A stretch of 64,000 nt of DNA. Origin: Sulfurimonas sp. GTDB lineage: Bacteria; Campylobacterota; Campylobacteria; Campylobacterales; Sulfurimonadaceae. Under the pieces are notes generated by a model. The model saw nothing but the letters and a program-made list of their open reading frames with translations. It did not search any database and had not been told where the DNA came from. Both the position numbers and the translations under genes were made by a program. The DNA lies in NCBI GenBank assembly GCA_028687935.1, contig JAQTZE010000002.1, positions 186,001 to 250,000 on the forward strand, read 5' to 3'. This document shows, piece by piece, positions 23,273 to 28,025 of the stretch; position 1 is the stretch's first letter, and every line of letters begins with the position of its first letter.

Positions 23273-24031
23273 ATGAAAATCAATAAATTAATCGTTAGTT
23301 CAGTAGCTGCATTAGCTTTAAGTACAGTACTTTTTGCAGATGGACATGCAACACATTGGGGATATACAGGCCATGAAGGTCCAGCAAATTGGGGTGATTT
23401 GGATGAAAAATACACGATGTGCAAACTTGGTATCAATCAGTCTCCGATTAATATCTCTAAAGATGTAGAAATAGACGCGGTTGACTTGAAACCTATCGCG
23501 TTTAACTATGTAACAGGTGCTTCAGAAGTTATCAACAACGGACATACAATACAGGTAAATATCAAAGAGGGAAGCTCTATCACTATCGATGGTATCGAGT
23601 TTTCTCTGAAACAATTTCACTTTCACACACCAAGCGAAAACCAGATAGAAGGGAAAAATTTCCCACTTGAAGCACACTTTGTACACGCATCAAAAGATGG
23701 TCAGTTGGCAGTTGTAGCTGTGATGCTTGAAGATGGTGTAGAAAATCCTCTCATCAAACAAATCTGGAAAAAAATGCCACATAAAGGTGATGAGAAAAAT
23801 GGCTGTGGTCTCTCTTCAAAACAGATCAATGATTTCTTACCAAAAAACAAAGATTACTATAGATTTAGCGGCTCACTTACAACACCTCCATGTTCTGAGG
23901 GTGTAAGATGGTTAGTTATGAAAAACTACTCTACAATTTCTACAGCACAAACAAAAGAGTTCTCAGAACTTTTCCATGGTGCAAACAACAGACCTGTTCA
24001 AGCAATAGGTGCTAGAAAAGTAGCTGAATAA
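23273..24031 (+). CDS. Periplasmic alpha-type carbonic anhydrase
   Basis: 252 residues. Cleavable signal peptide (SSVAALALSTVLFADG), then a full alpha-carbonic anhydrase domain: HWGYTGHEGPANWGDL, NQSPINIS, the proton-path NNGHTIQV, two zinc His in FHFHTPSEN and the third in EAHFVH, and RFSGSLTTPPCSEGVRWLV. Interconverts CO2 and bicarbonate in the periplasm. Campylobacterota use this to manage pH or feed carbon fixation (reverse TCA in autotrophs). Own promoter upstream and a strong hairpin downstream make it a single-gene unit. Confidence 0.95.
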   Translation: MKINKLIVSSVAALALSTVLFADGHATHWGYTGHEGPANWGDLDEKYTMCKLGINQSPINISKDVEIDAVDLKPIAFNYVTGASEVINNGHTIQVNIKEGSSITIDGIEFSLKQFHFHTPSENQIEGKNFPLEAHFVHASKDGQLAVVAVMLEDGVENPLIKQIWKKMPHKGDEKNGCGLSSKQINDFLPKNKDYYRFSGSLTTPPCSEGVRWLVMKNYSTISTAQTKEFSELFHGANNRPVQAIGARKVAE

Positions 24032-24462: not shown

Positions 24463-24834
24463 CTATATCTTATTTTGTAAAAAGTTTGCAACTGCTTCGT
24501 GTGCAAAAAGACCGTCTTTTTTTCTTATTTTTTGTATTTTGATGCCAAAAGAGTCAAGTGCTTCTTGCATATGTTCACCAACTGCTTGAACAAGAATGAT
24601 GTCACAGCCTTTAATGCCAGAGATATCTTTTTTGTGTTGATTAAGATGCTCTTTATCATCTTCTGCATGCTCATGTTCGTGGTCATGATCGTGATGATTG
24701 TGTCCTTCTTTACCATGTGCGTTAGGAATAATGCTCTCTATCTCAGTGTCATTAAAAATGGCAAAAAATGGAGCCTGACCTGTACGTTTAAATATTGTTT
24801 TTTTATCATTGTCAACTGGTACTGCTATTTTCAT
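24463..24834 (-). CDS. NifX/NifB-associated dinitrogenase cofactor-type protein with His-rich insert
   Basis: 123 residues. MKIAVPVDNDKKTIFKRTGQAP and FFAIFNDTE begin the Nif11-independent NifX/NafY fold; GCDIILVQAVGEHMQEAL is the conserved core. Between them (about 40-65) is a stretch of alternating His, Asp and Glu residues, which would bind divalent metal ions. Stand-alone members are common outside nitrogen fixation, and no nif gene is nearby, so a metal-sensing or metal-carrying role is more likely than FeMo-cofactor transfer. Confidence 0.82.
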   Translation of the reverse strand: MKIAVPVDNDKKTIFKRTGQAPFFAIFNDTEIESIIPNAHGKEGHNHHDHDHEHEHAEDDKEHLNQHKKDISGIKGCDIILVQAVGEHMQEALDSFGIKIQKIRKKDGLFAHEAVANFLQNKI

Positions 24835-24999: not shown

Positions 25000-25023
25000 A
25001 TCACACTGCGTTTGCAGTGTGAT
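25000..25023. terminator. Perfect 10-bp hairpin after the cyt bd operon, with uptake-like heptamer across its loop
   Basis: ATCACACTGC pairs with GCAGTGTGAT around a 4-base GTTT loop. It lies 9 bases beyond the stop of the CydX-like gene, so it probably ends the operon. Read on either strand the loop and its flank give TGCGTTT/AAACGCA, the over-represented heptamer of this window. Confidence 0.75.
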
Positions 25024-25031
25024 GGAGAGTA

Positions 25032-25139
25032 TTACTCTTTTATTTCAAATTTTTTTATATTTCTATAGATAACTTTGTACGCGATATAAATCAAAATAGG
25101 CCATAAACTAAGCCATACTAATTCACTTAAATATTCCAT
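25032..25139 (-). CDS. CydX-like small membrane subunit of cytochrome bd oxidase
   Basis: A 35-residue ORF, MEYLSELVWLSLWP then ILIYIAYKVIYR and a charged tail. It has one central hydrophobic helix rich in Trp, Leu and Ile, and a positive cytoplasmic end. AAGGA sits six bases before the ATG and overlaps the end of cydB; the gap to cydB is 11 bases and a strong hairpin follows the stop. CydX-class peptides (about 30-40 residues) stabilise hemes in cytochrome bd and are usually encoded directly after cydB. Sequence identity to E. coli CydX is not apparent, so the call rests on size, topology and position. Confidence 0.72.
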   Translation of the reverse strand: MEYLSELVWLSLWPILIYIAYKVIYRNIKKFEIKE

Positions 25140-25150
25140 TTTCTATCCTT

Positions 25151-26287
25151 TTAATAGTTATGTGCATCTGGCGCTTCGATCTCAGCTTGCGTTATTTTAA
25201 CCTTATCCATCGAGTACCATGCATAAGCGATGTAAGCAAGGACAAAAGGTACCATGAGTGCTACATAACTCATCACCATAAGCGTGTAGTGACTCCCAGA
25301 CGAGTTCATGATAGTCAGTGAGCTTTGCAGATCAAATGTAGATGGATAATAGGCTGTATTGTTAAGCCCTGCATTGAAAAGTATCGCTGTAACTGTTAAA
25401 ACAATTCCAAGGCCACCTGTTTTGATACAGCAAGTTTTTCTATATGTGATGGCTACAAAAACTGCGATGATTACCATCAAAACGCCACTGATAAACATAG
25501 CAAAGACCAGAGGCATCTCAAGAAAGTTTATAAAGTATTTGTATTGTTGCAAGACGATAACGCCCTCTGCGTTTATGCTAAAGCCATCTCTTGTGAGCGT
25601 CCAAATCAAAAAGGAGAGAAAAAATACCAAAAAGAAGATCATATTGATCTTGATAGATGCAACAGCTCTATCTCTTATGCCATCGTGATCTATATTATTG
25701 ATAAAATAGAGTGCCCCACTGATCTTTGCAAGAAAGACAAGAGAGAGTCCTAGTAGCCAATTATACGGATTCAAAAGCGCTTCAAGTCCACGAAGTTCAT
25801 TTTGCCAATGGGAAAAGTTATGTCTATCAATCGCAAACTCACTGCCGCTGAAGAATGTAGCGATAGCAACACCGAGTAGAAATACGCCGAGATTTCCATT
25901 GATATTTAAAAACATCTCATAGGTTTTTTGACCTAAAAAGTTGTTTGGTTTTGTTCTGTACTCGTAGCTTACTGCTTGGATGATAAAACAAAAAAGTATC
26001 GCAAGCCATACCCAGTAAGCACCACCAAAACTCGTTGCATAGAAGAGTGGAAACGCAGCGAAAAGCGCACCTCCAAAAAGAACAAGTGTAGTAAAGCCGA
26101 GTTCCCATTTACGTCCAATAGCATTGACGAGCATTGTTTTTTCCGTCTCAGTTGTTGAGAGTTTATTGAGTAGGGTTTGTCCGCCTTGGACAAACATCAT
26201 AAAGACAAAAAGACCTCCCAAAAGAGATACTATCATCCACCATAATTGTTGGAGTTGTAATAAGCTTAAATCACCAAATCCCATCAT
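25151..26287 (-). CDS. cydB: Cytochrome bd ubiquinol oxidase subunit II
   Basis: 378 residues, about nine membrane helices, matching CydB length. Recognisable segments: LWWMIVSLLGGLFVFMMFVQGGQTLL, RKWELGFTTLVLFGGALFAAFP, YEYRTKP and the C-terminal YVALMVPFVLAYIAYAWY (each quoted in part from the family pattern). CydB scaffolds the heme-bearing CydA and is needed for assembly. GGAGGA before the ATG pair at 26287/26284. Second structural gene of the operon; 1 base separates it from cydA. Confidence 0.93.
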   Translation of the reverse strand: MMGFGDLSLLQLQQLWWMIVSLLGGLFVFMMFVQGGQTLLNKLSTTETEKTMLVNAIGRKWELGFTTLVLFGGALFAAFPLFYATSFGGAYWVWLAILFCFIIQAVSYEYRTKPNNFLGQKTYEMFLNINGNLGVFLLGVAIATFFSGSEFAIDRHNFSHWQNELRGLEALLNPYNWLLGLSLVFLAKISGALYFINNIDHDGIRDRAVASIKINMIFFLVFFLSFLIWTLTRDGFSINAEGVIVLQQYKYFINFLEMPLVFAMFISGVLMVIIAVFVAITYRKTCCIKTGGLGIVLTVTAILFNAGLNNTAYYPSTFDLQSSLTIMNSSGSHYTLMVMSYVALMVPFVLAYIAYAWYSMDKVKITQAEIEAPDAHNY

Positions 26288-26288
26288 T

Positions 26289-27815
26289 TTAATGTCCTCC
26301 GTCGGGGCCGATTTTTATCTGCGTCGTCATGATTTTTATCTCTGCTATGAGTAGCGTTGTAAATAAAAGTGCAAAAAGTGTAAAACTTATAATGACATTG
26401 CTTGTCGCTATATGTGTTGCTGCAACACCAACGGGCATTAAGTCTTGGATAGCCCAAGGCTGACGACCGACTTCTGCTACAACCCATCCCGCTTCACCTG
26501 CGATATAGCCAAGAGGAATACTCCAAACTGCCGCCCAAAGAACAACTCTAAATTTTTCTATATCTTTTTTGGTAAGAAGAAATAAAACAAGAGCAAAAAG
26601 AACTAAAAACCATCCACCAAGTGCTACCATAATATGAAACGCATAAAAGGTAATAGCAACCGGAGGGACAATCTGCTCAGGATTTTTAAGATATCCATAG
26701 CCGAAATATTGCATATTCTCATCCAAAATCAGCCTGTTTTGAGCCATATTCTCACTATCTTTGAGTTCATGCGCATCTTTATATGCTTCAAAAGCTTCAA
26801 TAGCGATCTTGCCTTTGGCTATCTTCTCTTCTGCACCCATGATACCGCGCTCTTTATTGCCGTATACAAGGTCTTTGAGTCCTGGTACATAGGCATGGAT
26901 GTCGTGATAACCTAAAAGCGAAAGTGCATAAGGCGCTTCGATTTGGAAGATAAACTCTTCTGCTTCATTGAAGAGTGTCTTCTCAGGATTGAGCATACCG
27001 ATACCGACGATACCAGCTTCTGTGCGACCTTCATAGAGGCCTTCCATTGCTGCAAGTTTTACAGGTTGTTTGAGTGCAACTTGGTGCGCAGATTCATCAC
27101 CGCTAAGTGTAAGAAACAGCGCTGTTATCAGTCCAAAAGTAGCACCAACAAGCATAGAATTTTTTGCAAAAATAACATCGCGTTTTTTGAGCAAATACCA
27201 AGCACTCACACCAACGACAAAGAGTGAAGCCATGACATAGCCACTTGCGATTGTGTGTAAAAATTTACTCACAGCTACAGGTGAGAGAAGCACATCCCAA
27301 AAATTGTTCATCTCATTTCTTACAGTATCTGGATTAAATGTCATCCCAACAGGATGCTGCATCCATCCATTTGCGACTAATATCCAGAGCGCTGAGAGGT
27401 TTGAACCGATTGCAACGAGCCACGTTGAGAGGAGGTGAAAGTTCTTATCGACTTTATTCCAGCCAAAAAACATCACGGCGAAGAAAGTGGACTCCATAAA
27501 AAACGCAAGAATCCCTTCGATAGCCAAAGGCGCTCCAAAAATATCTCCGACAAACCAACTGTAGTTTGCCCAGTTCGTTCCAAACTCAAACTCCATGATG
27601 ATGCCCGTAGCAACACCAATAGCAAAGTTTATCGCAAAGATTGTCATCCAAAACTTGGTCGTCTTTTTCCAAAACTCACTCCCAGTTTTGACATAAATAC
27701 TCTCCATAATGGCAACGATGAATCCAAGCCCTAATGTAAGTGGCACAAAAAGCCAGTGGTACATTGCAGTCAGAGCAAATTGTGCACGACTCCAGTCTAC
27801 TAAATGTTCTTCCAT
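26289..27815 (-). CDS. cydA: Cytochrome bd ubiquinol oxidase subunit I
   Basis: 508 residues. Heme-ligand His of b595/d in TAMYHWLFVPLTLG near residue 20, GIIMEFEFGTNW, His ligand region SKFLHTIASGYVMAS, the quinol-binding Q-loop Lys and Glu in QPVKLAAMEGLYEG, and the C-terminal GWVVAEVGRQPWAIQDLMP. Short Q-loop type. It oxidises quinol and reduces oxygen to water with high oxygen affinity, suiting a microaerobe. AAGGA six bases before ATG; starts directly at the end of the DUF4492-like gene. Confidence 0.96.
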   Translation of the reverse strand: MEEHLVDWSRAQFALTAMYHWLFVPLTLGLGFIVAIMESIYVKTGSEFWKKTTKFWMTIFAINFAIGVATGIIMEFEFGTNWANYSWFVGDIFGAPLAIEGILAFFMESTFFAVMFFGWNKVDKNFHLLSTWLVAIGSNLSALWILVANGWMQHPVGMTFNPDTVRNEMNNFWDVLLSPVAVSKFLHTIASGYVMASLFVVGVSAWYLLKKRDVIFAKNSMLVGATFGLITALFLTLSGDESAHQVALKQPVKLAAMEGLYEGRTEAGIVGIGMLNPEKTLFNEAEEFIFQIEAPYALSLLGYHDIHAYVPGLKDLVYGNKERGIMGAEEKIAKGKIAIEAFEAYKDAHELKDSENMAQNRLILDENMQYFGYGYLKNPEQIVPPVAITFYAFHIMVALGGWFLVLFALVLFLLTKKDIEKFRVVLWAAVWSIPLGYIAGEAGWVVAEVGRQPWAIQDLMPVGVAATHIATSNVIISFTLFALLFTTLLIAEIKIMTTQIKIGPDGGH

Positions 27816-28025
27816 CTATTTTCCTTTTAAATTTTGATATACAAAATTAGATTTTTCATCTGCTGTCTTAAACTCTGTTTTGATTGTTTTATCATAAACG
27901 AAATAGTTTAAAACGACTAAAATGATAAGCAGCTTTATAGTGATTATTTTCCAAAGGCTTTTCCCGACTTTCATATTCTTGAAGCCATCTATATAAAAAA
28001 CAAAGATATTTTTGATACTAATCAT
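27816..28025 (-). CDS. DUF4492-like small membrane protein heading the cyt bd operon
   Basis: 69 residues. VFYIDGFKNMKVGKSLWKIITIK followed by a single helix (LLIILVVLNYFVY) matches the DUF4492 pattern of short proteins encoded just ahead of cydA in Bacteroidota and Campylobacterota. Function not established; position suggests assembly or stability of cytochrome bd. Its stop abuts the cydA start, so the two are strictly coupled. Confidence 0.8.
   Translation of the reverse strand: MISIKNIFVFYIDGFKNMKVGKSLWKIITIKLLIILVVLNYFVYDKTIKTEFKTADEKSNFVYQNLKGK

Follow-up and report, generated by a model that had tools for sequence, protein, structure and literature searches.

Gene organization at the cydAB locus

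In the window, by which we mean the whole 64,000-nt stretch of Sulfurimonas sp. DNA that was analysed, a short open reading frame (ORF) lies immediately behind the genes for a cytochrome bd oxidase. The features recognized at this locus, all on the minus strand, are as follows.

25000..25023, minus strand: perfect 10-bp hairpin, beginning 8 nt past the cydY stop (-15.9 kcal/mol, z -7.3)
25032..25139, minus strand: cydY/cioY, 35-residue single-helix protein MEYLSELVWLSLWPILIYIAYKVIYRNIKKFEIKE, with its TAA stop at 25034-25032
25146..25150, minus strand: Shine-Dalgarno sequence AAGGA, 6 nt 5' of the cydY ATG
25151..26287, minus strand: cydB, cytochrome bd subunit II, 378 residues (PF02322, E 5e-70; TIGR00203 above cut-off)
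26289..27815, minus strand: cydA, cytochrome bd subunit I of the long Q-loop type, 508 residues (PF01654, E 3e-164)
27816..28025, minus strand: small membrane protein of the DUF4492 family, 69 residues (PF14899, E 6e-25)

Read 5' to 3' on the minus strand, the TAA of cydB is followed by AAGGATAGAAA and then by the ATG of cydY at position 25139, which leaves 11 nt between the cydB stop and this start codon. From there, a 35-codon frame translates down to 25032, while the plus strand of the same interval is interrupted by stops. The original prediction had proposed a short ORF at 25032-25139, directly after cydB and with a well-spaced AAGGA, and in these respects it was accurate; the strand, which it left unstated, is the minus one. 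In relatives, the Shine-Dalgarno sequences are mostly TAAGGAG-like or of the AGGAG type.

Upstream in the same orientation, an end-to-end alignment of the window CydA with its E. coli counterpart (6rko_A) spans residues 4-502 and takes in the Q-loop. The DUF4492 gene is directly upstream of cydA, with its stop abutting the cydA start, and among 298 Campylobacterota genomes this family scores above cut-off in 125, compared with 126 for cydB, and in most of them its distance upstream of cydB is nearly constant. By position and kind, DUF4492 is probably the CydW of Porphyromonas gingivalis, which is co-transcribed with cydAB (PMC4668044), and probably also the hydrophobic protein that Allen et al. 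noted upstream in 2014. The name DUF4492 was not found in the open-licence literature searched, and the protein is likely to be a bd subunit or assembly factor not yet characterised. As the last gene, cydY could be co-transcribed with DUF4492-cydA-cydB, and the operon is probably read as one transcript.

Past the cydY stop, the hairpin at 25000-25023 ends in the tail AUUUCC, which lacks a U-run, and a consensus terminator scan did not list it. Thus, of the terminator first proposed to follow the ORF, the strong hairpin stands and the T-run and the terminator call do not; the structure may possibly be a terminator or a 3'-end stabiliser. Further along, a 123-residue ORF at 24463-24834 (minus strand) carries a His-rich stretch, GHNHHDHDHEHEHAEDDKEH, and resembles by eye a NifX/NafY-type domain protein into which a metal-binding segment has been inserted, and the ORF at 23273-24031 (plus strand) resembles, again by eye, a signal-peptide-bearing alpha-type carbonic anhydrase.

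Conservation and selection of the reading frame

The frame of the ORF is kept in relatives, with identities of up to 63% within the window's own family and up to 65% in the wider order, and homologues are located directly behind cydB in nearly all loci examined. When 12 relatives were pooled, pS was 0.66 and pN 0.28 in the ORF frame, as against pS/pN values of 0.39/0.32 and 0.22/0.36 in the frames shifted by +1 and +2, respectively; codon-level purifying selection acts in the cydY frame only. Moreover, a family profile built from one set of relatives was run against the short ORFs behind cydB in 80 named loci that had been fetched by cydB alone, and it gave a match at E<1e-4 in 65 of these, with no such match among 4984 shuffled ORFs (best 0.25) or 793 antisense ORFs (best 0.33).

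Genome counts tell the same story. As for the frame lacking conservation in relatives, the outcome named beforehand as speaking against a gene, the reverse was decisively found, in that 123 of the 126 cydB-bearing Campylobacterota genomes (298 genomes in all) have a same-strand homologue no more than 700 nt downstream of cydB, and in 113 of those 123 the aligned ends fall within 60 nt. One further cydB-bearing genome (G366) has its homologue about 42 kb away from cydB, and in two the homologue went undetected (G228, where cydB is broken, and G239). A homologue without cydB was seen in only two genomes, both as marginal matches (E 0.009). The resulting co-occurrence of cydB and homologue (124 with both, 2 and 2 with one, 170 with neither) has a Fisher p of 2e-79 in a test that ignores relatedness. 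The 35-codon ORF is a real gene.

At least three genomes have retained cydY after its relocation away from cydAB. In G011, cydAB (locus L063, 2492-5597) lies beside what by eye is a tmRNA-like stretch, and the CydY ORF is absent behind cydB; an intact CydY gene is instead found at L067, 2999-3115, between genes that by eye are response-regulator-like (GGDEF) and cardiolipin-synthase-like. In Helicobacter sp. 11S02596-1 (locus L089, genome G431), cydY is likewise apart from cydAB; G366 looks like the same genome, as its match shares the contig number and position. Finally, in the Bacteroidales genome G502, cydY is on another contig near a dihydropteroate-synthase-like gene. Such retention of the gene after its separation from cydAB suggests that the oxidase requires the protein itself.

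Separately, genome G056 has a second CydY-like frame (L064, 2896-2810, minus strand) upstream of a NAD(P)H dehydrogenase-like gene. Its start-codon position reads ATA, and it was rejected as a second gene and interpreted either as having a misread start or as a remnant, possibly of a lost bd operon.

The protein and its identity

The protein has its best 19-residue Kyte-Doolittle mean (1.65) over residues 7-25, and AlphaFold2 models it as one helix spanning residues 2-34 (mean pLDDT 90.6), so that hydropathy and model both bear out the one membrane helix first proposed. Its N-terminus has a net charge of -2 and its C-terminus one of +3. The pair W13-P14 is invariant in 41 homologues, and the position of Y21 is Tyr in 73 of 86 CydY sequences. 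Neither the protein nor its alignments could be assigned to a family by sequence searches of Pfam, NCBIfam, and the PDB, and matches to DUF2244, DUF7789, TraQ, and the like were set aside as isolated and weak. The data support a gene for a small CydX-like bd subunit that has no Pfam or NCBIfam model.

Such a subunit is already in the literature. Allen et al. (2014) screened long Q-loop cydAB operons that lack cydX, and in 15 species of Epsilon- and Deltaproteobacteria they named a conserved downstream short ORF CydY, with one helix, a strong ribosome-binding site, and, at the helix start, a Trp conserved without exception (PMC4325964). More recently, Froschauer et al. (2025) showed by Ribo-seq that a 34-residue Campylobacter jejuni form with conserved Trp, Pro, and Tyr is translated, and by reciprocal co-immunoprecipitation that it binds CioA, and they renamed it CioY; AlphaFold-multimer predicts it on CioA/CydA at the CydX position (PMC11955535). 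In C. jejuni 414, we found MLHALFLLTWPLVIYLSYKFIVLNINQLEKDSKL, 34 residues long and 9 nt past cydB, which matches the family profile at E 5e-17 and, because of this length and position, is taken to be the published CioY. The window gene shows every CydY/CioY feature that can be tested on sequence, these being the position, the ribosome-binding site, the helix, the W/P/Y residues, and homology to the C. jejuni protein, along with the defining combination of a long Q-loop CydA (Q-loop aligned) and no CydX (no PF08173 match for the ORF).

We are highly confident that the ORF is cydY (cioY), the last gene of a DUF4492-cydA-cydB-cydY operon, and its product is most likely a helix that would join the CydAB oxidase at the CydX site and stabilise the haem core. 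The suggestion that this small bd subunit might form a new class is not upheld, as CydY was named in 2014 (PMC4325964) and CioY in 2025 (PMC11955535); the window gene is another carrier of a family already known. It should be added that the name CydY has been used twice, for this Epsilonproteobacterial subunit (PMC4325964) and for YnhF (CydH) in a paper on the structure of the E. coli oxidase (PMC6853902).

Relationship to CydX

According to the original prediction, the protein does not resemble E. coli CydX, and this holds in Pfam and pairwise searches, though not at the profile level. The CydX Pfam model PF08173, which recognizes E. coli CydX at 53.9 bits, matched neither the window protein nor any homologue scanned. 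Likewise, the CydX motif YxxWxxGx15[E/D] is broken in the window protein by Leu10 in place of Tyr and Leu16 in place of Gly, while W13 and E32 retain the W-x18-E spacing. Once the CydY profile was compared with one for CydX (12 plasmid-borne homologues, E. coli CydX, and AppX), they aligned in one ungapped register with a score of 24.4 and an hhalign probability of 70%. None of 300 column shuffles scored above 19.8, and a reversed profile gave 12.3. E. coli CydX alone scored 18.4 against the CydY profile, with 200 shuffles reaching 7.5 at most and the unrelated one-helix proteins CydH and KdpF about 1.

The common skeleton is W-x3-W-x18-[E/D], made up of W9, W13, and E32 in the window protein and W2, W6, and E25 in CydX. 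Trp occupies position -4 in 73 of 86 CydY and 14 of 14 CydX sequences and position 0 in 79 of 86 and 14 of 14, and an acidic residue, equivalent to CydX Glu25, is found at +19 in 53 of 83 and 14 of 14. The shared register suggests remote homology, and the ORF could then be a divergent CydX-family member, with CydX and CydY forming one homologous family of common ancestry. This would refine the identification as CydY, and we consider the case for it evenly poised. The shuffles and the skeleton in the same register favour it; against it are the lack of any PF08173 match in CydY, the absence of CydX Gly9 from CydY and of the invariant CydY Pro from CydX, a probability under the usual threshold, and the potential for convergence between short helices that face the same binding constraint. 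Allen et al. thought an independent origin of CydX and CydY possible (PMC4325964).

Among the Desulfuromonadaceae, Deltaproteobacteria, and Desulfobulbaceae, three loci (L126, L128, and L147) have a 30-residue short ORF with a Shine-Dalgarno sequence behind cydB, e.g., MIALMLVSWVVLVAVSYKGALFILKKAGEL. These contain the W but no P and match the CydY profile weakly, and are perhaps a further variant.

Occurrence beyond Campylobacterota

The CydY profile also finds matches behind cydB in Bacteroidota and Chlorobiota loci. In one sample of Bacteroidales, 46 of the 76 cydB-bearing genomes have a CydY homologue behind cydB, and two more have it on other contigs. The main text of Allen et al. (PMC4325964) does not mention Bacteroidota, and a P. 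gingivalis study reports no cydY immediately behind cydAB (PMC4668044). Our search of open-licence papers found no record of CydY in Bacteroidota bd oxidases, which is to be read as not found rather than as unreported. Compared with what has been reported, the CydY family looks wider, and its distance from E. coli CydX smaller. There is perhaps an equal chance either way that CydX (Proteobacteria) and CydY (Campylobacterota and, newly, Bacteroidota and Chlorobiota) are branches of one ancient family, with CydY being standard in many Bacteroidota bd oxidases.

The window gene adds a genome to a validated subunit family that has no profile and that annotation pipelines can miss; a CydY family profile would allow them to call it. 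The presence of CydY behind cydB in more than half of the sampled cydB-bearing Bacteroidales genomes concerns a phylum of gut anaerobes in which descriptions of the bd oxidase leave this subunit out. The register common to CydX and CydY suggests, moreover, that a helix of this kind is a general requirement of long Q-loop bd oxidases.

Proposed role in the oxidase

CydY is a single transmembrane helix with a predicted N-out/C-in topology, as the terminal charges and homology suggest. By homology, it would most likely pack along CydA at the site of E. coli CydX, next to transmembrane helices 1, 5, and 6, and there hold the haem-bearing helices, allowing the di-haem site to assemble and remain active. 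In the E. coli structure, CydX contacts transmembrane helices 1, 5, and 6 of CydA, with Glu25 as a "float" at the cytoplasmic edge and a cytoplasmic C-terminus (PMC6853902); Allen et al. instead place the CydX C-terminus in the periplasm (PMC4325964). For the window organism, we infer the single-transcript operon, the position of the helix on CydA, its topology, and its stabilising effect.

That the helix might instead act like CydH (YnhF, once called "CydY" in E. coli), by blocking an oxygen channel rather than clamping CydA, is very improbable: the two are one-helix proteins of similar size and have shared a name, but E. coli cydH is outside the cyd operon (PMC6853902), YnhF scores 1.1 against the CydY profile compared with 18.4 for CydX, and AlphaFold-multimer puts CioY at the CydX site on CydA (PMC11955535). 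Hardly credible is a chance ORF, or a leader or regulatory ORF in the 3' untranslated region with a functionless product, as its shortness and the hairpin just downstream might suggest, given the purifying selection specific to its frame and the amino-acid conservation even where the gene has left cydAB (G011, G366/Helicobacter sp. 11S02596-1, and G502).

Comparison with known small subunits

With the CydY of Allen et al. (2014), the window protein agrees in position, Shine-Dalgarno sequence, single helix, helix-start Trp, and a long Q-loop CydA partner, and no tested feature sets them apart. C. jejuni CioY is alike in length (34 versus 35 residues), position behind cydB, and the W-P pair and Y, though it starts about three residues later and is without the first Trp (W9 in the window protein); translation and CioA binding are proven for CioY. 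E. coli CydX is similarly one helix encoded behind cydB, with the W-x3-W-x18-[E/D] register. In contrast, CydX (YxxWxxG) carries Tyr at -3 and Gly at +3, whereas CydY has Leu, Tyr, or Phe at -3 and the invariant Pro, and in the window lineage a 7-residue N-terminal extension relative to CydX.

CydZ (DUF2474, PF10617) is also a small helix whose gene follows cydB, with a Trp where the helix begins, but it pairs with short Q-loop CydA/CioA (PMC4325964); the window's family gave no PF10617 match, and the window CydA has a long Q-loop. CydH/YnhF is another one-helix bd accessory subunit, although encoded outside the operon and with a sequence that does not match the CydY profile. Geobacillus CydS is a one-helix bd accessory subunit as well; PDB sequence searches with the window protein and its alignments gave no bd-subunit match.
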